This document shows, piece after piece, positions 53,555 through 64,000 of a DNA stretch of 64,000 nucleotides. The DNA comes from Hymenobacter oligotrophus. Lineage in GTDB: Bacteria; Bacteroidota; Bacteroidia; Cytophagales; Hymenobacteraceae. The stretch lies in assembly GCF_003574965.1 (NCBI RefSeq), contig NZ_CP032317.1, positions 992,001 to 1,056,000 on the forward strand. Reading direction: 5' to 3'. The translations under genes and the position numbers were made by a program. The notes under the pieces were generated by a model. That model saw nothing but the letters and a program-made list of their open reading frames with translations, had not been told where the DNA came from and made no database searches. How positions within the stretch are numbered: position 1 is the stretch's first letter; each line of letters opens with the position of its first letter.

Positions 53555-54196
53555 TTAATCGCGGCGAGTTCCGGCCGATATTGTGCTGTGGCGTTGGCGC
53601 AGCACCTCCACCACATCTTCAATGCCTAGGTTCGAGGCGCGGAGCAGCACCAGCAGGTGGTACAGCAAATCAGCGGCTTCGCCTTTCAGGCCTTCGCGGT
53701 TGCCTGCTACCGCGTCGATGACCGTTTCTACGGCCTCCTCGCCTACTTTCTGGGCAATCTTCGGCATACCCTTCTGAAAGAGCTTTACCGTGTACGAATT
53801 GGGTTCTTCGTCGGGGTGTTGCTGACGCCGGGAAACCAAGCGCTCCAGCTCGGCCAAAAAGCTTACCGGGGCCGTGGGCAACGCTGCTTGCTCCTCCTGC
53901 TCGAAACAGCTAACGGTGCCGCGGTGGCACGTAGGGCCGTCGGGCCGGGCCCGGATGAGCAGCGCGTCGTTGTCGCAGTCGGGGTGCAGGCTTACCACGG
54001 TTAGGTAGTGGCCGCTGGTTTCGCCTTTCGTCCAGAGGCGATTCTTGGAGCGCGAGAAAAAGGTAACGCGTCCCTCCTGCTCGGTTTTGCTCAGCGCCTC
54101 CTCGTTCACGTAGCCCAGCATCAACACCTGCCCGGTGTCGGCGTCCTGCACTACGGCCGGAATCAGCCCGCCCATTTTTTCGAAGTCTAAAGTCAT
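53555..54196 (-). CDS. hisIE: Bifunctional phosphoribosyl-AMP cyclohydrolase/phosphoribosyl-ATP diphosphatase
   Basis: A 213-residue fusion carrying steps 2 and 3 of histidine synthesis. The N-terminal HisI domain shows GRVTFFSRSKNRLWTKGETSGHYL, DCDNDALLIRARPDGPTCHRGTVSCF (the zinc-binding Cys and Asp residues). The C-terminal HisE domain (FLAELERLVSRRQQ, KIAQKVGEEAVETVIDAVAGNREGLKGEAADLLYHLLVLL) is the helical pyrophosphohydrolase. It is the last gene of the operon; a 112-base gap with a long imperfect inverted repeat separates it from hisF. Confidence 0.96.
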   Translation of the reverse strand: MTLDFEKMGGLIPAVVQDADTGQVLMLGYVNEEALSKTEQEGRVTFFSRSKNRLWTKGETSGHYLTVVSLHPDCDNDALLIRARPDGPTCHRGTVSCFEQEEQAALPTAPVSFLAELERLVSRRQQHPDEEPNSYTVKLFQKGMPKIAQKVGEEAVETVIDAVAGNREGLKGEAADLLYHLLVLLRASNLGIEDVVEVLRQRHSTISAGTRRD

Positions 54197-54198
54197 TT

Positions 54199-54310
54199 GA
54201 GTTATCAGTTGTCCGTTGCCGGTTGCCAGTGACCGGATTTGAGTTGTCCGATGTCAGTGCCCATGCAAGTCAGGATAAACTGACAACTGGCAACCGACAA
54301 CCGACAACTC
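54199..54310. repeat. Imperfect 32-bp inverted repeat between hisF and hisIE
   Basis: The arms (about 54199-54230 and 54279-54310) match at about 26 of 32 positions and are built of degenerate GTTGTC-like units. The element fills the whole gap between hisF and hisIE and overlaps the last bases of neither gene by more than a codon or two. Confidence 0.75.
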
Positions 54311-55067
54311 ATAATCTTACCGGCAGGCCGGCGGCCCGCAAGTGCTGCTTTAAATCAGGAATGCCGATTTCGCCGAAGTGGAAGATGCTGGCCGCCAAGC
54401 CAGCATCAGCCTGGGCTTGCTGAAACACGTCGGTAAAGTGCTCCATTTTGCCCGCCCCGCCCGAGGCAATTACGGGTACGCTCACGGCCTGGCACACGGC
54501 ACCGGTTACATCCAGCGCAAAACCATCCTTGGTGCCGTCGTGGCTCATGGAGGTAAGCAGCAGCTCGCCGGCCCCGCGCTCGGCGGCTTCGCGGCACCAC
54601 GCCACGGCATCGAGGCCCGTAGCTACGGTACCGGCGCGGGTATACACCTGCCACCCGGCTTCGGGCGTGTGGCGGGCATCCACGGCCACCACAATGCACT
54701 GCGAACCGAAGCGGCGGGCCAGCTCATCAATCAGCTCGGGGCGCTGCAAGGCGGCCGAGTTAATCGAAACTTTATCGGCCCCGTTGAGCAACAGCGCTTC
54801 CACATCGGCCACGGCGCCAATGCCGCCGCCTACGGTGAACGGGATGTCCAGCTCGCGGGCTACGTCGCGCACCAGGGCCACCAGCGTTTGCCGCTTCTGG
54901 TTGGTGGCGGTTATATCGAGGAACACCAGCTCGTCGGCGCCCTGCTTCGCGTATTGCGACGCCAGGGCTACCGGGTCGCCGGCGTCGCGCAAACCCTCGA
55001 AACGGATGCCCTTCACGGTGCGGCCGTCCTTTACATCGAGGCACGGAATGATGCGTTTGGTCAGCAT
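54309..55067 (-). CDS. hisF: Imidazole glycerol phosphate synthase, cyclase subunit
   Basis: A 252-residue TIM barrel. [16 protein letters not shown] holds the catalytic Asp11, [11 protein letters not shown] the central strand, and [26 protein letters not shown] the phosphate-binding loops. With HisH it converts PRFAR and glutamine-derived ammonia to imidazole glycerol phosphate and AICAR. Length fits the family. It follows hisA by 30 bases, in the order hisH-hisA-hisF, which is usual. Confidence 0.97.
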
Positions 55068-55097
55068 CTTCTTTAGGTTGAAAGTACAGAAAGGAAC

Positions 55098-55820
55098 CTA
55101 GGCTACGAACCGGCTGAGGTCTTCGAGCCGAATGGTGCCCTCGTATATAGCCTTGCCGATGATGGCGCCGTACATGCCTACTTCGGCCAGGGCCTCCACA
55201 TCGGCAATGGTGGTTACGCCACCGCTGGCTACCAGCTGCGCTTGCGGCAGTTCGGCGCGTAAGGCTTTGTAAGCACCAAGGGACGGGCCTTGCAGCTTGC
55301 CATCCTTGCTGACGTCGGTGCACACAAAGGTGGCGGCGCCGGCGCCTAGGTACGCGGCCACAAACTCGGCCAGGGTCCGCTCCGATTGCTCGGCCCAGGC
55401 GTTGATGGAAATGTGGTTGTCGCGGAAGTCGGCACCGACGATGATGCGCTCGGCCCCGAAGCTGCGCAGCCAAGCCTGCACGGTGTCGGGCTCGCGCACG
55501 GCAATGCTGCCCGCCGTGATTTGCGCCGCGCCGGCATCGAAGGCTTGCCGTACGGCTTCCTCTTGCTGCAAGCCGCCCCCAAAGTCGATGATCAGGTTGG
55601 TGTGGCGGGCAATGCGCTCGAGCACGGGCAGGTTTACGGGCCGCTTAGCGCGGGCGCCATCAAGGTCGACGAGGTGCAGGCGGCGCATGCCGTGCTGCTC
55701 GAAACGCTGAGCTACGGCCAACGGGTCGGAGTCGTACGTGGTTTGCTGCGCAAAGTCGCCCTCGGTGAGGCGTACGCATTGGCCACCGATGAGGTCGATG
55801 GCGGGAATGATTTCCATCAT
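55098..55820 (-). CDS. hisA: ProFAR isomerase
   Basis: A 240-residue TIM barrel closely related to HisF. IIPAIDLIGGQCVRLTEGDF carries the catalytic Asp9, followed by RRLHLVDLDGARA, IDFGGGLQ, ITAGSIAVREPD and the second catalytic Asp in CTDVSKDGKLQGPSL. It isomerises ProFAR to PRFAR. It is 28 bases from the end of hisH and 30 bases from the start of hisF, so it is in the middle of a tightly packed operon segment. Confidence 0.97.
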   Translation of the reverse strand: MMEIIPAIDLIGGQCVRLTEGDFAQQTTYDSDPLAVAQRFEQHGMRRLHLVDLDGARAKRPVNLPVLERIARHTNLIIDFGGGLQQEEAVRQAFDAGAAQITAGSIAVREPDTVQAWLRSFGAERIIVGADFRDNHISINAWAEQSERTLAEFVAAYLGAGAATFVCTDVSKDGKLQGPSLGAYKALRAELPQAQLVASGGVTTIADVEALAEVGMYGAIIGKAIYEGTIRLEDLSRFVA

Positions 55821-55848
55821 GCTGGTATGGTGTTCTGGCGGCCCTAGG

Positions 55849-56436
55849 TTAGAGCGCCAAAAAGTTCTGAAGGATGCGGGTACCTACTGGGCCGCTTTTC
55901 TCGGTGTGGAACTGCACCGCGTAGAAGTTGCGGTGCTGCACCGCGGCACTAAATGGCGCCGGGTAAACTGCTTCCGCAATGGTGTACTCGCCTACCGGGG
56001 CATAGTAGCTGTGCACGAAATACACGAAGTCTTCCTCGCGCAAGCCTTCGAACAACGGCGTGCGCAGCCGTTGCAGGTTGTTCCAGCCCATGTGCGGCAC
56101 TTTGTGCTGGGCATCGGGTGCGAAGCGCTTTACCTCAAAGGGCAAAATGCCGAGTAGCTGCGTGTCGCCTTCTTCGCTGTGCTGCCCCAGCAACTGCATC
56201 CCCAGGCATATACCCAGGAATGGCTGCTCGAGCGTAGGCAAGAGTTTGTCGAGGCCTTGGGCGCGGAGCTCGTGCATGGCCGAAGCTGCCTCGCCTTCCC
56301 CCGGAAACAAGATCTTGTCGGCCCGTCGGATGACGTCATGATCAGCGGTCAGGGTTGCTTGTACGCCTAGGCGCTCCAAGGCAAACAACACCGACTGAAC
56401 ATTGCCGCCTTTGTAGTCAATTACTGCTATTTCCAT
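55849..56436 (-). CDS. hisH: Imidazole glycerol phosphate synthase, glutaminase subunit
   Basis: A 195-residue class I glutamine amidotransferase. MEIAVIDYKGGNVQSVLFALERLG starts the protein, LFPGEGEAA is the oxyanion region, PFLGICLGMQLLGQHSEEG holds the catalytic Cys nucleophile, and YAVQFHTEKSG the His and Glu of the triad. It supplies ammonia to HisF. The frame extends 21 codons further upstream through the inverted-repeat element, but the N-terminus used here is the family's. Confidence 0.96.
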   Translation of the reverse strand: MEIAVIDYKGGNVQSVLFALERLGVQATLTADHDVIRRADKILFPGEGEAASAMHELRAQGLDKLLPTLEQPFLGICLGMQLLGQHSEEGDTQLLGILPFEVKRFAPDAQHKVPHMGWNNLQRLRTPLFEGLREEDFVYFVHSYYAPVGEYTIAEAVYPAPFSAAVQHRNFYAVQFHTEKSGPVGTRILQNFLAL

Positions 56437-56449
56437 TTCGTTATACCAA

Positions 56450-56537
56450 ATGTTTATACAAATGAGAAGGCGGTAATGAATCCGTGTTATGCTACACAAG
56501 TAAGTCTCTTAGGCAGCTTTCCCATTTGTATAAACAT
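56450..56537. repeat. 88-bp element with 15-bp perfect terminal inverted repeats
   Basis: ATGTTTATACAAATG (56450-56464) and CATTTGTATAAACAT (56523-56537) are exact complements enclosing 58 bases between hisB and hisH. It is AT-richer than the operon and could be a small non-autonomous element or a large hairpin. No target-site duplication was identified. Confidence 0.7.
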
Positions 56538-56548
56538 ATGTTTAAGCC

Positions 56549-57652
56549 CTACAGAACGCCTTTGGTGCTAGGTATTTCCATCTTAGCAGCATCACGCTGC
56601 AGTGCAGCTTTCGTTGCTTTGGCTACTGCCTTAAAGATGGCCTCAATCTTATGGTGCTCGTTGTCGCCCTCGCACTTTATATTGAGGTTGCAGCGGGCTG
56701 CGTCGGAGAAGCTTTTAAAGAAATGGTAAAACATTTCGGTAGGCATGTCTCCTACTTTTTCGCGCTTGAACGTGGCATCCCACACCAGCCATGGGCGGCC
56801 CGAAAAATCGATAGCCGCTTGCGCCAACGAGTCATCCATGGGTAGCAAGAAGCCGTACCGAGCTACTCCACGCTTGTCGCCGATGGCTTGGTTGAACGCT
56901 TCGCCGATGGCAATGGCAGTGTCTTCAATCGTGTGGTGTTCGTCGATGTGCAAGTCGCCTTGTACCTCTACCAGCATATCGACGCCGCTGTGCTTGGCCA
57001 GCTGATCAATCATGTGGTCAAAAAATCCGAGGCCCGTTTTTATGCTGTGCTTCCCGCTGCCGTCGAGGTTCAGCTCCACCCGAATTTTCGTTTCGTTCGT
57101 GTCGCGTTGTACCACGGCCTTGCGAGCGGGCAAACGCAGAAACTGGTATATCGCATCCCAGCTAGTTGTCGTCAGTGCCGCGCGGTCGTCGCGGAGTTCG
57201 TCGCTGATCAGGATGGATTGGCAACCTAGGTTCTCGGCTAGCTGCACGTCGGTAATCCGGTCGCCGAGCACGTAGGAGTTCGGCAGGTCGTAACCGTTGG
57301 CCGCATCGAGGTACTCCGTAAGCATGCCAATGCCGGGCTTGCGCGTCGGCAGGTTTTCGTGCGCGAAGCTGCGGTCGATGTGGCTACGCACAAACTCCAC
57401 CCCTTCGCCGCGCAAAATGTCGAGCATCAGGTTTTGGCAAGGCCAGAAGGTGTCCTCCGGGAACGACGCCGTGCCCAGGCCATCTTGGTTTGTTACGAGC
57501 ACCAACTCGTAGTCAAGCTCGCGAGCGATGCGCGCCAGGTTGCTGATGGCCCCCGGCAAAAACTGAAACTTATCGAAACTATCGACCTGCTGGTTGGGCT
57601 GCGGCTCTACCAAAATGGTACCGTCGCGGTCGATGAAAAGCACTTTTTTCAT
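56549..57652 (-). CDS. hisB: Bifunctional histidinol-phosphatase/imidazoleglycerol-phosphate dehydratase
   Basis: A 367-residue fusion. The N-terminal HAD phosphatase is seen in [14 protein letters not shown] (nucleophile Asp8 and Asp10) and [11 protein letters not shown]. The C-terminal dehydratase shows [49 protein letters not shown] and [14 protein letters not shown], with its paired metal-binding His motifs. The protein therefore carries steps 6 and 8 of the pathway. The ATG at 57652 is preferred; the upstream frame extension is unlike the family. Confidence 0.97.
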
Positions 57653-57699
57653 GTGAAAGTCGCAAGACCTAGGGCCTCGCGTTGGGAAGTAGTTGAACA

Positions 57700-57736
57700 A
57701 ACAAAGCCGCCCCGCTGCCAATGAGAGGGGCGGCTT
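57700..57736 (-). terminator. Internal terminator-like hairpin between hisC and hisB
   Basis: AAGCCGCCCC (57704-57713) and GGGGCGGCTT (57727-57736) are exact complements. Read on the minus strand the stem is followed by TGTTTGTT, just after the hisC stop codon. It may lower expression of the genes downstream of hisC or protect the upstream mRNA. Confidence 0.55.
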
Positions 57737-57743
57737 ATCTTAC

Positions 57744-58790
57744 CTAGGCAAACTGCTGCAGGGCTTCGAGCAGTTGCTCATTCTCGGCGGGCGTGCCCAC
57801 CGTCAGGCGCAGGCAACCCGCGCAGCCTGGCTGGGTAGTGCGGTTGCGCACCACGATGCCTTTGCCGAGCAGGTACTCATACACGGCAGTGGCATCGGGC
57901 CGGAAGCGGACGAGCAAGAAGTTGGCATCGGATGGAAACACTTCTTCCACAATGCCTACTGCAGGCAGCTGCTGCTGCAACCACGCGCGGCCGGTCAGGA
58001 GTTCTTGCCGCATTTGCTCAAAGCGGGCCGCGTCGCGCAGGCCAGCAAACGCATGCTGTTGCGTAGCCTCCGAGATATTGTAAGGAGGCTTGATCTTGTT
58101 GAGGTAGCCAATCAGCTCGGCCGATGCGAAAGCCATACCCAGGCGCAGGCCAGCCATGCCCCAGGCCTTCGAAAACGTCTGCAGCACCACCAGGTTGGCA
58201 AACTCGTCGAGGCGAGTGGTCCAGCTCGGAGCGTCGGCAAAATCTACGTAAGCCTCGTCAACCACAACAATACCACGGAAGCCGCGCAGGATTTGCTCGA
58301 TGGCATCCTGGTGCAGCAGGTTGCCGGTGGGGTTGTTGGGCGAGCACAGAAAAACAACTTTCGCATCCGAGGCCAACACCTTATTAATAACCTCGGCCGA
58401 AAGCTGAAAATCGCCCGTGAGCGGGATACGCTCAATGGCCACGTCGTTGAGGTTTGCGGCCACCTCGTACATGCCGTAGGTGGGCGGCAGAATGGCAATG
58501 CTATCCTGGCCGGGCACGCAAGTAAGGCGCAGCAGCAAGTCGATGGCTTCGTCGGAGCCGTTGCCCAGGAAGATTTGCTCCGGACGGACGTGCTTGAGCT
58601 TGGCTACTTCGGCTTTCACGGCGCGCTGCAGCGGATCGGGGTACCGGTTGAACGCCTGCGGCCCCACCGAGCCCAGGCTGTTTTCGTTGGCATCCAGCAT
58701 TACCTGCGCCGTGCCCTGAAATTCGTCGCGGGCCGAAGCGTAGGGTTTCATGGCCCGGATGTTGGGCCGTATGAGTGAGTCGAGGTTCAT
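57744..58790 (-). CDS. hisC: Histidinol-phosphate aminotransferase
   Basis: A 348-residue PLP enzyme of fold type I that converts imidazole acetol phosphate to histidinol phosphate. LIRPNIRAMKPYASARDEF is the family N-terminus, LDANENSLG and NRYPDPLQ follow, LGNGSDEAIDLLLR binds the cofactor phosphate, and VLQTFSKAWGMAGLRLGMAFA carries the PLP lysine. The frame extends 17 codons upstream into a repeat element, so the ATG at 58790 is preferred. Confidence 0.96.
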   Translation of the reverse strand: MNLDSLIRPNIRAMKPYASARDEFQGTAQVMLDANENSLGSVGPQAFNRYPDPLQRAVKAEVAKLKHVRPEQIFLGNGSDEAIDLLLRLTCVPGQDSIAILPPTYGMYEVAANLNDVAIERIPLTGDFQLSAEVINKVLASDAKVVFLCSPNNPTGNLLHQDAIEQILRGFRGIVVVDEAYVDFADAPSWTTRLDEFANLVVLQTFSKAWGMAGLRLGMAFASAELIGYLNKIKPPYNISEATQQHAFAGLRDAARFEQMRQELLTGRAWLQQQLPAVGIVEEVFPSDANFLLVRFRPDATAVYEYLLGKGIVVRNRTTQPGCAGCLRLTVGTPAENEQLLEALQQFA

Positions 58791-58792
58791 TA

Positions 58793-58910
58793 GAGAAGGA
58801 CGAATGAAGAAGGAGGAATGAAGAATTACTTCAATAAGCATGAATCAGGCGGCAACGAACAACCCATGTGGCCGCCCGCTTCCTTATTCATTCCTCATTC
58901 TTCCTTCAGC
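58793..58910. repeat. Imperfect inverted repeat between hisD and hisC
   Basis: Units such as GAAGGACGAATGAAGAAGGA (from about 58794) recur as complements in the stretch ATTCATTCCTCATTCTTCCT (about 58886-58905). The far arm overlaps the last codons of hisD, so the C-terminal LKEE of HisD is encoded by the repeat. Confidence 0.65.
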
Positions 58911-60187
58911 GAAGCCAAGCGCAGCGTTACTGCTCGGGCGTGGGCGCGCAAGCCTTCGGCCTCGGCCATGGCTTCGACAACGGGGCCTAGGGCCCGTAGA
59001 CCGGCTGGCGTGATGCGCTGGAAGGTTATTTTCTTCACGAACGAGTCGAGCGATACGCCGCTGTAGTTGCGGGCGTAGCCGTTGGTGGGCAGCGTGTGGT
59101 TGGTACCCGAGGCATAGTCGCCAGCCGCCTCGGGCGTGAGGTGACCTAGGAACACCGAGCCAGCGCTGGTTACGCCCGCGGCCATGGCCTCGGCGTTTTC
59201 AACGGCCAGAATCAAGTGCTCGGGCGCGTACTGGTTCGAGAACAGCAGCATTTCCTCGGAGGTGCGCAGCAAAATGGCGCGGCTTTCGCGCAAGGCCAAT
59301 GCCGCTACTTCGTGCCGGGGCAACTCGGCCAACTGGCGTTGTACCTCGGCCGTTACTTGCTCGAGCACGCGCGGCGAGTTGGACAGCAACACCACTTGCG
59401 AATCGGGCCCGTGCTCGGCCTGGCTCAGCAAATCGGCCGCCACGAACACGGGATTCGCGGTTTCGTCGGCAATTACCAGCACCTCCGAGGGCCCAGCGGG
59501 CATGTCGATGGCCACGCCGCGCTGCGCGGCGAGCTGTTTGGCGGCCGTTACGTAGCGGTTGCCCGGGCCGAAAATCTTATCGACGGCCGGTACGCTGGTG
59601 GTGCCGCCCGTGAGTGCGGCTACGGCTTGGGCGCCCCCGGCTTTAACGATGGTATCGATGCCGAGCAGCTCAGCCGTGAACAAGATGACGGGGTTAACGG
59701 AGCCGTCTTTGCCGGGGGGCGTGCACAACACAATTTCGGGGCATCCGGCCAGGCGCGCGGGCACGCCCAGCATCAGCAAGGTGCTGAACAAGGGCGCCGT
59801 GCCGCCGGGTATGTACAAGCCCACCCGCTGCACCGGCACCGAGCGGCGCCAGCACTCCACGCCGGGCATGGTTTCGAGGCGCAGCTCGCCCTCGCGCTGG
59901 GCCGCGTGAAAACGTTCGATATTCTGGTAGGCCTGCCGAATGGCGGCTTGCAAGTCGGCGGGTACTTGGGCAATGGCCGCGCGCACCTCGCCGGGCGAAA
60001 CGCGCAGGCTACCTAGGGTTGCTCCGTCGAGCACGGCGGCGTAGTGCAGCAACGCCTCGTCGCCGCGTTGGCGCACGTCGTCGAAAATTTCACGCACCCG
60101 CTGCTCCACCTGCTTCGCTTCGCCTTGGGCCGGGCGCTGCTGCAAAGCAGCCCACTCAGCCGGCGAAGGATATTGAATGATTTGCAT
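58895..60187 (-). CDS. hisD: Histidinol dehydrogenase
   Basis: A 430-residue zinc enzyme for the last two steps, oxidising histidinol to histidine. VQRVGLYIPGGTAPLFSTLLML, PEIVLCTPPGKDGSVNPVILF, DKIFGPGNRYVTAAKQL, DMPAGPSEVLVIAD and the zinc-binding QAEHGPDSQVVLLS are family hallmarks; HTLPTNGYARNYSGVSLDSFVKK completes the C-terminal signature. It lies second in the operon, after a 96-base gap holding an inverted-repeat element. Confidence 0.97.
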   Translation of the reverse strand: MQIIQYPSPAEWAALQQRPAQGEAKQVEQRVREIFDDVRQRGDEALLHYAAVLDGATLGSLRVSPGEVRAAIAQVPADLQAAIRQAYQNIERFHAAQREGELRLETMPGVECWRRSVPVQRVGLYIPGGTAPLFSTLLMLGVPARLAGCPEIVLCTPPGKDGSVNPVILFTAELLGIDTIVKAGGAQAVAALTGGTTSVPAVDKIFGPGNRYVTAAKQLAAQRGVAIDMPAGPSEVLVIADETANPVFVAADLLSQAEHGPDSQVVLLSNSPRVLEQVTAEVQRQLAELPRHEVAALALRESRAILLRTSEEMLLFSNQYAPEHLILAVENAEAMAAGVTSAGSVFLGHLTPEAAGDYASGTNHTLPTNGYARNYSGVSLDSFVKKITFQRITPAGLRALGPVVEAMAEAEGLRAHARAVTLRLASLKEE

Positions 60188-60193
60188 GTGTTA

Positions 60194-60280
60194 AGTTTTA
60201 GGTATTAGGGCCTGGGGCTTAGGTTGTGGGTTATAAGCGGTTTCGTCTCCGAGCCCTAAAACCTGACACCTAAGCCCTAT
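60194..60280. repeat. Imperfect inverted repeat between hisG and hisD
   Basis: Blocks such as GGGGCTTAGGTTGTGGGTTA (about 60214-60233) have complements in CCTAAAACCTGACACCTAAG (about 60255-60274), giving a long imperfect hairpin filling the gap. The unit resembles GGGCTTAGGT and differs from those in the other his gaps. Confidence 0.65.
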
Positions 60281-60283
60281 AAC

Positions 60284-61135
60284 CTAACTAATCATCTTCT
60301 CGATGGGCAGCACCAGAATGCCTTCGGCACCCACGGCTTTCAGCTGATCCGTAACATGCCAGAAGTCGTCCTCATTTACCACCGATTGCACCGAAACCCA
60401 GCCTTGCTCAGCCAGTGGCGTAACCGTGGGCGACTTGATGCCGGGCAGCAGCGCCTTCACGGCATCGAGCGACGCTACGGGGGCGTTTAGCACAATGTAC
60501 TTGTTGCGGCGCGCGCGGCGCACGGCCTGCATCCGAAACTGCAGCTGTTCCAGCAGGGCTTGTTTTTCGGCCGACAATGCGCGGTTGGCAATCAATACGG
60601 CCTCGGAGCGGAACACCGTTTCTACTTCGCGCAAGCCGTTGCCCAACAGCGTGGAGCCCGACGATACAATGTCGCAGATGGCATCGGCCAGGCCAATGCT
60701 CGGCGCAATTTCCACGGAGCCGCTGATGGTGTGCAGGTTGGCCTGCACGCCGTGGCCGGCGAGGTAAGTACCTAGGATTTGCGGGTACGAGGTGGCAATG
60801 TTCTTGCCCTGCAGGTCGGCTACTGAGGCGTAGGCCTCGCCGCGCGGCACCGCCAACGACAAGCGGCACTTGCTGAAACCTAGGGGTTCCACTTCCAGCT
60901 CGGGCAGGCCGGCTTCTACCAGCACGTTCTGGCCTACCACGCCTAGGTCGGCCACGCCATCCTGCACGTAGCCAGGAATGTCGTCGTCGCGCAGGTATAA
61001 AATTTCGAGGGGAAAATTGGTGGCTTCGGTTTTGAGCTTGTACGAGCTGCTAACGAAGCTAATGCCACACTCGCGAATCAACGACAAAGAGTCTTCGCTG
61101 AGGCGGCCCGATTTCTGGATTGCCAGACGGATCAT
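60284..61135 (-). CDS. hisG: ATP phosphoribosyltransferase, long form
   Basis: A 283-residue enzyme catalysing the first and committed step, joining ATP and PRPP. IRLAIQKSGRLSEDSLSLI is the N-terminus, DLGVVGQNVLVEAG and LGFSKCRLSLAVP lie in the first lobes, and GSVEIAPSIGLADAICDIVSSGSTL binds the PRPP phosphates. The C-terminal ACT-like domain (KSPTVTPLAEQGWVSVQSVVNEDDFWHVTDQLKAVGAEGILVLPIEKM) identifies the long, histidine-inhibited form, so no HisZ is needed. It is the first structural gene, about 180 bases after a His-rich leader peptide. Confidence 0.96.
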   Translation of the reverse strand: MIRLAIQKSGRLSEDSLSLIRECGISFVSSSYKLKTEATNFPLEILYLRDDDIPGYVQDGVADLGVVGQNVLVEAGLPELEVEPLGFSKCRLSLAVPRGEAYASVADLQGKNIATSYPQILGTYLAGHGVQANLHTISGSVEIAPSIGLADAICDIVSSGSTLLGNGLREVETVFRSEAVLIANRALSAEKQALLEQLQFRMQAVRRARRNKYIVLNAPVASLDAVKALLPGIKSPTVTPLAEQGWVSVQSVVNEDDFWHVTDQLKAVGAEGILVLPIEKMIS

Positions 61136-61318
61136 GAACAAGAAACAATAACAACGGGAAACGACGCCAGCCAGCAGCCAATGCGGCCGAAAGTGTACGC
61201 TGAACGCCAGAAAATGAAAAGGGGTGCCGGAAAGCAACAAACCCTAGGTGGGTTGTGCACTGACCAAACCGGCTGGGGCGACGTAGGTTCGGACCGTAGC
61301 CGAACGCTTATACGTAAG

Positions 61319-61432
61319 TTATTCCTCTCCCGTGGAGGAATGGTGGTGATGATGGCCAGCATGCCCGTGTGCGGCAGCCCAACGCGGGGCAACCGGCAAC
61401 ATAGAGGGGCGCAACAAAGCAGCGAGGGGCAT
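61319..61432 (-). CDS. hisL: Histidine operon leader peptide
   Basis: A 37-codon frame starting MPLAALLRPSM (a second ATG at 61402 would give 27 residues) and ending HGHAGHHHHHSSTGEE, with seven His codons in ten positions. It lies between the his promoter and hisG, so ribosome stalling at the His codons could couple charged tRNA-His to operon expression, as in enteric his attenuation. A GC-rich hairpin region follows before hisG (near 61236-61260), but I cannot confirm an exact terminator/antiterminator pair by eye. Confidence 0.75.
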   Translation of the reverse strand: MPLAALLRPSMLPVAPRWAAAHGHAGHHHHHSSTGEE

Positions 61433-61451
61433 GCGGCAGGGATGAGTTGCG

Positions 61452-61481
61452 CAAAGGTAAACAGCGGAACGATTTTCGCAA
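61452..61481 (-). promoter_or_regulatory. his operon promoter
   Basis: On the minus strand TTGC (61481-61478), an 18-base spacer and TACCTTTG (61459-61452) give an ideal Bacteroidota promoter. The transcript would start near 61445, about 13 bases before the first leader ATG. Confidence 0.7.
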
Positions 61482-61619
61482 GTGCAGTTTTTTTGGCACC
61501 CGCCCGAATTTAACGGCCACATGATGATGTGGTTTTAAACCCTGCGGCTTTCGGCATGTCGTATCTTGGCACTAGAAATCCCGCCCCGAACGTTGCTACC
61601 CTACCACCTGCATCAGCTT

Positions 61620-62480
61620 ATGTCGCGCGTATTGTGTTTTTTTCTGGCGTTTGTGTTGTGTATATCGGTTGCCCAGGCGCAGCAGTTTACCCTGCCGCAG
61701 GCCAGCCCGCATGCTTTCGTCAGCCAAACCGTAGGCCTCACCGAAATAGCCGTCGATTACCACACCCCCGCCGTGCGCAACCGCGCCATTTGGGGGCAGC
61801 TGGTGCCCTACGACCAGGTGTGGCGCGCCGGGGCCAACGAAAACACCATCATCTCCTTTACCGATTCGGTGCGCATCGGCAACCAAACCGTGCCGGCCGG
61901 CAAGTACTCGCTGTTTGTGCTGCCCTCGGCCGAGCACGACTGGCAGTTTATCCTGAACAAGGTAACCACCCACTGGGGCGCCGAGGGCTACGACGCCAAA
62001 GAAGACCAAGTGCGCGTGCCGGTAATGCCCGAGCAAAGCACCATGCACGAAACGCTGGTGTACTGGTTTTCCGACGTGCGGCCCAACTCGGCCAAGCTCA
62101 ACCTTTCGTGGGAGCAAAAAACCATTTCCGTTACCATCCGCACCAACGTGCACGCCAAGGTGCTCAACGCCATGCAGGCGGCCCTCACGGAGCGCCCCAA
62201 CGATCCGCAACTGCTGGCCCAAGCCGCCGATTACCTTATCCAGAACCGCATGGAAGCCGAACTGGCCCTGCGCTACATCAACCGCGCCATCGAGCTCAAC
62301 GACAGCTACACCAACAATTGGCTGAAGGCTCGCCTCATGGCGCAGAAAGAAGACTACCTCACGGCCGTTGAAATTGCCCGCCGCGCCATTAAAATGGGCG
62401 ACAAAGACGATGAATCGTTTAAGCACCAATTGCCCAACATGCGCCTGGCGCTAACCGAATGGCAGTCGAAAGCCTACTAG
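61620..62480 (+). CDS. DUF2911 protein with TPR tail
   Basis: A 286-residue exported protein. The signal peptide (MSRVLCFFLAFVLCISVAQAQ) is followed by a DUF2911 domain (FVSQTVGLTEIAVDYHTPAVRNRAIWGQLVPYDQVWRAGANENTIISF) spanning about residues 30-165, then a helical C-terminal part with TPR-like pairs (AELALRYINRAIELNDSYTNNWLKARLMAQKEDYLTAVEIARRAIKM). DUF2911 has no established function and is widespread in Bacteroidota. It is divergent from the his operon and ends at a good terminator. The start at 61620 is the first ATG giving the signal peptide. Confidence 0.87.
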   Translation: MSRVLCFFLAFVLCISVAQAQQFTLPQASPHAFVSQTVGLTEIAVDYHTPAVRNRAIWGQLVPYDQVWRAGANENTIISFTDSVRIGNQTVPAGKYSLFVLPSAEHDWQFILNKVTTHWGAEGYDAKEDQVRVPVMPEQSTMHETLVYWFSDVRPNSAKLNLSWEQKTISVTIRTNVHAKVLNAMQAALTERPNDPQLLAQAADYLIQNRMEAELALRYINRAIELNDSYTNNWLKARLMAQKEDYLTAVEIARRAIKMGDKDDESFKHQLPNMRLALTEWQSKAY

Positions 62481-62500
62481 CACCCAAGGTGTTCCGCACG

Positions 62501-62528
62501 AAAAAGGCCGCAGCAGCGGCCTTTTTTG
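62501..62528 (+). terminator. Terminator after the DUF2911 gene
   Basis: AAAAAGGCCGC (62501-62511) pairs with GCGGCCTTTTTT (62516-62527). Confidence 0.85.
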
Positions 62529-62590
62529 TGGGTACCGGCCGCGGCCTTTGGGTTAAGTAGTCAGTCGAAAACAACTTTTTGCATTTGGGC

Positions 62591-62694
62591 GTCATGCTGA
62601 GCAAAGCCGAAGCATCTCTGCCGCTTCGTCCGATAGCATTTCAACGAAGCGGCAGAGATGCTTCGGCTTCGCGGACGCCAGATGGGCATGACGT
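62591..62694. repeat. REP-like palindromic repeat
   Basis: GTCATGCTGAGCAAAGCCGA with AAGCATCTCTGCCGCTTCGT is followed after a short loop by the complement ACGAAGCGGCAGAGATGCTT, CGGCTTCG and finally GGGCATGAC. The core pairing is exact over more than 25 bases. This sequence type is a familiar intergenic repeat in Hymenobacter genomes, so other copies are expected outside the window. Confidence 0.85.
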
Positions 62695-62728
62695 ACTTTC
62701 CGGCATAAGCTTAACTTATGACGAGCAC

Positions 62729-64000
62729 TTAAAACCGAGCAATAACCCGCAGGTTGATAACGCGCTGCGACAGGTAGTTCGGCACGCCGTAAGTGGTGCC
62801 GTTCAGGTCCTGAATGTAGCTGTAGCCGGCCACGTTGTTGGCGGCCAGCACGTTCAGCACTTCCAGCCCCATCCAGATGCTTTCGGGCTCGTAGAAGCGG
62901 CGCTGCTGGTCGGTGCGCAAACTGAGCACTTTGGAAAAGCCAAGGTCGACGCGCTTGTAGCTGCGGGTAAGCTTGCTGGTGCCGCGCAGCTCGGGCAACC
63001 CGGGCGGGCTGAACGGCAAACCGGTACCAAACACCACGTTCACGTAGCCGCGCACCGAGGGGTTGTCGGGCAGGTGGTCCTGGAAAAAGATGCCCAGGTT
63101 CAGGCGCTGGTCGCTGGGCCGCCGGATGTAGCCCTTTTCCTTCTGGCCGATTACGTTACCTAGGGAGTCGTACTGCGTGATGACGTCGCCACGCAGGTTT
63201 TCGCGGGTAGTCAGCACCCCCAGGCTAAACCACGACTCGGCCCCGCGCACAAACTCGCCGCTGAAGCGCGCATCGAAGCCAGCCGCGTAGGCCGTAGCCA
63301 GGTTTTGGCCGAAGTAACGCAGGCGCACGTTGTCGACATCGTACGGTACGACGTCGGTGAGGTACTTGAAGTACGCTTCGGTGGTTAGCTGAAACGGCCG
63401 GCCGGCGGCTTTTAGGCGGTATTCGCTCCCTGCGATGAAATGCACGGAGCGTTGGGCCTTCAGGTCGCGGTTGAGCACGCCCACCTGGTTGCGCAACTCG
63501 CGGTAAAACGGCGGCTGGTAGTACAAGCCCGCAGCCGCTTTGTACGACAACCGCGGGTTGCGGCGGCTGATGGCCGAATACTGCACCCGGGGGCTTACCG
63601 CAAGCTGGTTGTTGACGGACCAATAATGCAGGCGCACGCCGTAGGTGAGCGTACGCAGCGAATCGAGCCGCCAGGTGTGCTGCCCGTAGCCCTGCACCCG
63701 CGCCGACTCCAGGTTCAAATCGGTGCGCAGGCGGGTAAAACGTTGCACCGGCACAAAGTCGGCCGAATCCACAAAGGTGTACTCGTCGAGGCGGTCGTCG
63801 ATGTTTTCGCGCCCGCCCTTCAGGCCGAAGCGCAGCGTGTGCCGCTCCGTGGGCTGGTACGTTGCGCGCGCCTCGAGGCTGGCAATCCAGGCGTTGAGGC
63901 GGTTGCGCGAGTGGTCGAAGCGCGAGCCGATGTCGCGTTGGCGCACGGCTTGGTTGAAGGTGCGCGAGCTAGGGTCGCGGTCGATATCGGCCAAACGGTA
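62729..64000 (-). CDS. TonB-dependent receptor, C-terminal part (partial)
   Basis: The frame is open to the window edge, so the N-terminal signal peptide, carboxypeptidase-like domain and plug are outside. The 423 residues seen are alternating amphipathic beta strands of an outer-membrane barrel (TLRFGLKGGREN, TYGVRLHYWSVNNQLAVSPRVQYS, YKAAAGLYYQPPFYRELRN) ending in LRVIARF, with the aromatic C-terminal residue of outer-membrane proteins. It resembles the TonB receptors of Bacteroidota that lack a SusD partner; the ligand is unknown. Only the 3' end of the gene is present in the window. Confidence 0.88.
   Translation of the reverse strand, partial: YRLADIDRDPSSRTFNQAVRQRDIGSRFDHSRNRLNAWIASLEARATYQPTERHTLRFGLKGGRENIDDRLDEYTFVDSADFVPVQRFTRLRTDLNLESARVQGYGQHTWRLDSLRTLTYGVRLHYWSVNNQLAVSPRVQYSAISRRNPRLSYKAAAGLYYQPPFYRELRNQVGVLNRDLKAQRSVHFIAGSEYRLKAAGRPFQLTTEAYFKYLTDVVPYDVDNVRLRYFGQNLATAYAAGFDARFSGEFVRGAESWFSLGVLTTRENLRGDVITQYDSLGNVIGQKEKGYIRRPSDQRLNLGIFFQDHLPDNPSVRGYVNVVFGTGLPFSPPGLPELRGTSKLTRSYKRVDLGFSKVLSLRTDQQRRFYEPESIWMGLEVLNVLAANNVAGYSYIQDLNGTTYGVPNYLSQRVINLRVIARF

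Follow-up and report, generated by a model that had tools for sequence, protein, structure and literature searches.

The histidine operon of Hymenobacter oligotrophus is preceded by a short reading frame which ends in a dense cluster of histidine codons. Comparison with related genomes suggests that the family of this bacterium kept this histidine sensor and seems to have largely swapped the usual terminator of such leaders for a conserved RNA hairpin. Judged from these comparisons, a lineage-specific ribosome-mediated histidine attenuator probably controls the operon hisGDCBHAFI; we put the probability at roughly 0.7. The kind of leader peptide is known. Leader-peptide attenuation is a textbook mechanism with an intrinsic terminator as the effector, and its operation in the enteric his operon is classical.

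The stretch of DNA analysed, called the window throughout, comprises 64,000 nucleotides (contig NZ_CP032317.1, positions 992,001 to 1,056,000). The his operon is located on the minus strand in the order hisGDCBHAFI, i.e., hisG and seven further his genes down to position 53555. The names hisD to hisI/E are our putative assignments from the ORF translations. The operon and the elements ahead of it are:

60284..61135, minus strand: hisG, the first gene of the operon
53555..60187, minus strand: hisD, hisC, hisB (two-domain), hisH, hisA, hisF and hisI/E, in this order
61452..61481, minus strand: promoter-like site TTGC ... TACCTTTG, a sequence pattern of the Bacteroidota type with a TAnnTTTG -7 box
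61319..61432, minus strand: leader ORF of 37 codons, ATG to TAA; the ATG is invariant in nine aligned sequences, the window's included
61340..61369, minus strand: His codon cluster HGHAGHHHHH, from a scan of the window and conservation in relatives

Bacteroidota have a promoter type of their own and make little use of Shine-Dalgarno sequences. The original prediction placed a promoter upstream of the leader, and a promoter-like site is indeed present. TTGC is at 61481, and the layout, with the spacing read as N19, is TTG-N19-TACCTTTG over 61481-61452, TACCTTTG itself occupying 61459-61452. The pattern TTG-N19-TAnnTTTG occurs three times in the window vs 0.52 expected, and 0 of 100 shuffles get to 3. 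From the TAnnTTTG box to the leader ATG there are 19 nt in the window; the family median is 9 nt. The predicted short frame ending in HGHAGHHHHH is confirmed at 61432-61319. It translates as MPLAALLRPSMLPVAPRWAAAHGHAGHHHHHSSTGEE, with the C-terminal end HGHAGHHHHHSSTGEE directly before the stop codon, and has 7 His in 10 codons. Such a density is exceptional in this DNA: among 98,978 stop-free segments of ten residues in six frames just four, overlapping and all in the leader frame, contain at least six His. The distance from the leader stop to the hisG start (61135), predicted as about 180 bases, is 183 nt.

When the genomes of the genus are compared, the His codons turn out to be firmly kept. 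hisG is present in 8/8 genus genomes, and the His run is found at the same position in all eight leaders as well as in Hymenobacter gummosus (L044). Conservation of these codons in relatives had been named beforehand as the test on which the idea could fall, and the comparison did not overturn it. The genus alignment shows a well-kept start codon and a well-kept block from the His codons to a downstream hairpin (hairpin II, below); variation is found in the N-terminal codons and, for the most part, in the sequence 3' of this block. In the wider family three of 150 genomes (G008, G013 and G071, two of them in genus g2) gave no hisG match and are possibly histidine auxotrophs.

A wider survey scored a leader when the final part of an ORF had 4 His in 10 codons and lay 50 nt or more upstream of hisG, a cut chosen after the first relatives had been seen. 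His-rich leaders were present in 65/80 named, 59/60 family, 16/80 order and 31/40 class regions, the named and the family sets sharing species. On the reverse strand there were none in any set, and shuffled sequences gave means of 0.25-0.55 with at most 2 per set. The original prediction held such leaders to be much less described in Bacteroidota; rare they are not, given the proportion of class regions which have one, and a flavobacterium had already been noted in the available text of an earlier paper (PMC9723704).

A TAnnTTTG box lies 1-60 nt upstream of an in-frame leader ATG in 116/136 leader-bearing family regions. Near hisG itself the box occurs in 31/80 order regions without a leader vs 1/29 with one; it is also found there in 15/136 leader-bearing family regions and, in the class set, in 1/31 regions with and 1/9 without a leader. 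Five loci from Rufibacter, Sabulibacter and Adhaeribacter (L046, L047, L049, L062, L077) have a second TAnnTTTG box 24-47 nt upstream of hisG, possibly a leader-independent promoter. In four order loci (L074, L087, L099 and L102; L074 and L087 are Spirosoma) hisG is preceded by a conserved peptide rich in His and Arg, ATHSPFRHR.HH, perhaps another leader variant. The features by which his operon leader peptides are generally recognized, a short His-clustered ORF upstream of his genes and its conservation between species, are both found in the window's group. On these sequence grounds a histidine-sensing leader peptide upstream of hisG is very likely.

The second conserved element is a short helix at the very end of the leader, followed by a hairpin:

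61335..61341, minus strand: A arm, ATTCCTC, which forms a hairpin with B (-7.3 kcal/mol)
61321..61327, minus strand: B arm, GAGGAAT, which pairs with A and overlaps the first base of the stop codon
61287..61305, minus strand: hairpin II, GTTCGG-loop-CCGAAC (-6.2 kcal/mol)

GC-rich pairing between leader and hisG had been proposed from the sequence. As a property of the whole leader this is weak in the window (z -1.34; 7 of 100 shuffles are equally or more stable); the part which stands is local structure, highest at or just after the leader stop. In the window's genus it is modest (mean z -1.5 and -1.7, n 7). Folding of the segment which starts 20 nt before the stop gives z -4.1 for hym1, -4.0 for pon, -2.5 for cyc and -1.5 for the window's genus. 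The peak is weak or absent in two Hymenobacter clades (hym2, mean z -1.1, n 14; hym3, 0.0, n 7), and the class leaders peak further downstream, in segments starting 20 and 40 nt past the stop (z -3.0 and -2.0). Scoring the stop-codon helix directly (score >=14) resolves the groups. It is present in 51/59 sequences of the Hymenobacter group vs 25% of local shuffles, in 53/57 of the Pontibacter group vs 6%, and in 14/28 of the order set vs 12%. The class leaders, with 5/31 vs 15% of shuffles, are at chance level. In these counts, as in those of folding profiles, helix forms and terminators, duplicates in the compared stretch were counted once.

The usual form of the helix is ATTCCTC/GAGGAAT. At the same place one Hymenobacter clade has the unrelated helix GGTGCTA/TAGCACC, and L125 and L137 have the equally unrelated TGGCTCTCT/AGAGAGCCA. 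Other clades have ATCTCTC/GAGAGAT (L150) and, read from the sequence, ATTCTCC/GGAGAAT (L362). The leader frame of L362 continues through A:B; thus, the tie between helix and stop codon is not universal. Similarly, in the relative L009 hairpin II is swapped for GCATCCGGC/GCCGGATGC, as read from the alignment. In a home-made, tree-based covariation test on three clade alignments (33, 53 and 15 sequences) none of the complementary pairs covaried significantly, and the significant non-complementary pairs numbered 0, 2 and 1, respectively; pair counting found no two-sided change in A:B within alignment A1. Since covariation of sites is absent, the claim for the helix rests on replacement of the whole helix between clades and on the shuffles.

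Inspection by eye did not reveal any pairing through which A:B would be connected to hairpin II. Many sequences have a GGG strand able to pair with either of two CCC strands, again by eye. Two further pairings seen in this way, of the His-Gly-His codons with a CCCCGT motif in Hymenobacter and of GCCGG segments in the window's genus, are broken in several relatives and were dropped.

Two palindromic sequences of this neighborhood deserve mention in their own right. CCTAGG is strongly over-represented, with 89 copies in the window (1-64000), where dinucleotide shuffles predict 12.2 and the highest count in 100 of them is 20; one copy lies inside the his leader at 61243-61248. Between two convergent ORFs, at 62598-62680, there is a near-perfect inverted repeat of about 70 nt with 48 similar stretches genome-wide (both palindrome strands counted). 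It resembles a dispersed palindromic repeat family, and a similar stretch in Hymenobacter sp. BRD67 (L040) is a sub-threshold Rfam match.

Downstream of the B arm a third conserved element is encountered, a motif centred on ATAT:

61309..61314, minus strand: CGTATA, the form which the conserved ATAT-centred motif takes in the window's genus, at a distance from the B arm
61293..61354, minus strand: stretch matched by covariance model R1 (E 8.4e-5; the window's own sequence is in the model)

Among 113 sequences examined 103 have the motif, and in 82 of these a CATAT-type motif follows GAGGAA at a distance of 9 nt across a spacer of variable sequence. The window's genus has diverged; its motif is CGTATA(A/G)G at a spacing of 6-7 nt. 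Outside this genus most sequences, inspected by eye, continue after the motif with a C run and then a hairpin.

Helix and motif were combined in the covariance model R1, built from 33 sequences including that of the window. Counting one match per matching genome, R1 matches 111/150 family, 33/241 order and 10/395 class genomes, in search sets which overlap and include the genomes of the model. Loci were fetched for the class and order matches, and 34/35 are upstream of hisG; the 111 family matches are known from the search alone. Three of the 34 hisG-preceding matches (L332, L335, L336) belong to a family outside the order which is not in the model. The remaining match, L365 (E 0.004), has no hisG and was taken as chance. 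R1 is not exhaustive: at E 0.01 it misses 2/8 genus genomes, though their leaders are plainly related. A pattern search for the motif in 241 order genomes found 45 matches, spread over 42 genomes, vs 23 for the reversed pattern. By our reading nineteen of the 45 are of the CATAT form, belong to the window's family or f19 and are near hisG by coordinates. The other 26, not individually inspected, are about at the control level, and the idea that other operons share the motif was abandoned. At gathering score Rfam has no family in window positions 60000-64000, and none except a tRNA (in L282) in 40 loci which include the window's own, L002.

The spacing of helix and motif invites comparison with the hairpin-dependent RNA polymerase pause which synchronizes transcription and translation in the enteric hisL and trpL leaders. 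A:B and the ATAT motif might together be such a pause, a reading which could be part of the attenuator explanation and which we regard as possible, though rather improbable. In its favor are the 9 nt across a variable spacer in 82/103 sequences, and by automatic reading a G follows the CATATH-type motif in 24/33 hym, 7/9 cyc and 42/56 pon sequences. However, the available text on E. coli hisL gives 10 nt from stem to pause and a pause consensus G-10 Y-1 G+1 (PMC9291695), and the ATAT motif fits this in part only. The distance to the base before the G is about 14 nt, a Y before the G is not general (A before G is the commonest in pon, 18/56), and three more class genomes read CATATCA or TATATCA.

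The sharpest division within the class concerns terminators. Under a strict rule, which was set after a loose one, class members outside the window's order have a strong intrinsic terminator after 28/31 leaders (shuffles 0.0). L291 and L305 are examples with a strong hairpin and a T run after the leader, and in L271, read from the sequence, GGTAAGC after the leader can pair with GCTTACC, the 5' arm of the terminator. These class leaders look like textbook attenuators. The picture changes profoundly in the window's surroundings. The same rule finds terminators in 0/58 sequences of the Pontibacter group (0.3 expected), in 11/61 of the Hymenobacter group, to which the window belongs, vs 8.7 by shuffles, and in 4/28 of the rest of the order (0.3 expected). 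Regions which failed the leader cut are absent from these counts (1/60 family, 9/40 class, 64/80 order and 15/80 named regions). Three order members, L174, L175 and L177, have a textbook His leader with a T-tailed terminator.

Under the strict rule, then, an intrinsic terminator between leader and hisG is not above chance in the window's family. Classical transcription attenuation needs a terminator and is thus unsupported in the window's group. Of the transcription attenuation first proposed for this his leader, the histidine-sensing leader stands, with its conserved codons, frame, position, promoter-like site and gene context; the terminator does not. Helix and terminator rarely occur together: 14 sequences have both, 111 the helix only, 29 the terminator only and 24 neither, counts which are uncorrected for relatedness. 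A Fisher p of 3e-9 from the terminator analysis is not a true probability, since some species occur in more than one set and the sequences share ancestry. Rho-type termination in a C-rich, G-poor leader was considered and rejected: over the 183 nt C exceeds G by 10, an excess reached by 22% of window stretches of the same length.

Could simple scans have missed the terminator of a classical attenuator? In the window's genus it might consist of hairpins II and III, or of GCCGG...CCGGC followed by CCCCTTTTCATTTT, and in other Hymenobacter of T-tailed hairpins. A GC-rich hairpin followed by a T run is present in L250, L252, L254 and L266. With the loose cut the Pontibacter group has weak T-tailed hairpins in 21/60 sequences vs 5.0 expected. 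Moreover, the strict rule takes hairpins of at most 41 nt; therefore it overlooks the long-looped ones of L062 and L241 and possibly others. On the other side stand the strict counts given above for the Pontibacter and Hymenobacter groups, and the loose cut does not lift the latter above expectation (28/50 vs 28.0). The window's genome does use ordinary terminators; it has at least one, the hairpin with T6 at 62506-62527 (read from the sequence). We consider a missed terminator unlikely.

Regulation of hisG translation needs no terminator at all and so fits its lack. The purine-rich B arm of the genus would pair with a pyrimidine-rich stretch before the hisG start and block translation, and A:B would free hisG when the ribosome waits on the His codons. 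In 8/9 sequences (the window and eight relatives) the downstream stretch which pairs best with B begins no more than 30 nt from hisG, and only in 8/33 and 13/56 sequences of two other clades; in L006 the pairing of B is near-complete. However, its energy is at the level of shuffled sequences (mean z 0.12 over the nine; -0.47 for the stretch nearest hisG), the nine are closely related, and the pairing is not seen in other clades. As a general mechanism it was rejected since it does not exceed shuffles, and for the genus we judge it quite unlikely. Finally, a small metal-binding protein which precedes hisG by accident is hardly credible: the His-rich C-terminus is all that recalls one, peptide length and remainder vary while the His codons before hisG stay, and differing His-rich peptides occupy the same position across the class.

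For the ribosome-mediated attenuator we propose the following course of events, in which we infer that the leader is translated and that the ribosome stalls, and likewise the direction of the response and its output. Transcription would start just after the TACCTTTG box, and the leader would be translated at once. With ample His-tRNA the ribosome would cross the run of five His codons, reach the stop, and cover and melt A:B; expression of hisG would be reduced. With scarce His-tRNA it would halt on the His codons, which adjoin A on its 5' side; A:B would form, and transcription would enter hisG. As the output we envisage that transcription stops early, at hairpin II or beyond it. We lean slightly towards A:B as a ribosome-responsive switch; that the output is transcriptional is an even bet.

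A model for such a switch is provided by two species of a sister genus, L062/L245 and L241. Here B has two predicted partners: A itself (-5.7 to -6.2 kcal/mol), or a second copy of A further downstream with a T run behind it (-11.0 to -11.6 kcal/mol). By these predicted pairings this is a plain antiterminator/terminator pair, and only in these sequences is an antiterminator which would exclude the terminator clear. Since A comes immediately after the His codons, a ribosome halted on these would leave A free to take B from the terminator, and a ribosome at the stop would cover A. We extend the switch of L062 and L241 to the window because A, B and the His run are alike there.

How does this leader relate to described systems? 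It is like the enteric his leader (hisL, RF00514) in having a short leader ORF, a His run before hisG and a hairpin beside the His codons. It is unlike hisL in that the window's group has no terminator above chance, and RF00514 has no gathering-score match in the window region, in L002 or in the loci of 39 relatives; a single sub-threshold match occurs in L307 (33.9 bits, gathering 49). Our literature search, which covered few subscription journals, found no paper on leader-peptide attenuation in Hymenobacter or on a Bacteroid histidine operon leader. The comparative study of Vitreschak et al. from 2004 reportedly covered some Bacteroidetes.

Closest is the work on Flavobacterium psychrophilum, which finds strong signs of leader-peptide attenuation upstream of amino-acid operons, together with a 5' element of hisG which is present in other Flavobacteriaceae and has no Rfam match (PMC9723704). 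Phylum, gene, structured 5' region and lack of an Rfam match are shared with our leader. Neither a leader-end helix nor a lost terminator is described in the text on the flavobacterial element; the two elements may overlap (PMC9723704). Firmicutes his attenuators, according to the part of the source available, have three to five consecutive His codons before candidate alternative hairpins; they differ in phylum and in the terminator and antiterminator described there (PMC9413887). Attenuation of hisS and hisZ in Firmicutes is likewise described in an available text (PMC2965389). A table entry lists Bacteroid-trp RNA (RF01692) as a candidate cis-regulatory RNA in Bacteroidetes (PMC2864571). It differs in being named for trp, not his, and RF01692 gave no match, either at E up to 0.1 in 40 loci or, for the window region, at E up to 1. 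For Bacteroides thetaiotaomicron the accessible text mentions that long 5' UTRs contain short ORFs (PMC7366714), and the available part of a paper on the his genes of the superphylum describes attenuation only for enterics (PMC8305728). In the texts covered by the search we found no description of a his leader with a helix and a spaced motif. The variant in which the terminator is seemingly replaced by these two elements thus appears to be new as far as the literature was searched.

A more far-reaching suggestion is tentative, and we hold it to be somewhat less than probable. In part of the Bacteroidia terminator-based his attenuation may have been replaced by a distinct RNA element, i.e., the leader-end helix, the spaced ATATHR motif and a strand-exchange hairpin (CCC/GGG/CCC), which would act via a pause of the polymerase, via a protein bound to it or at the level of hisG translation. 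Helix plus motif is a testable RNA element which Rfam 15 does not hold. Both architectures exist within family f19, where L174 and L175 have terminators and other members the helix; so the change could be placed on the tree. Within one bacterial class the his sensor was kept while its effector seemingly changed, and the leaders offer a natural series for asking how attenuators change their output.
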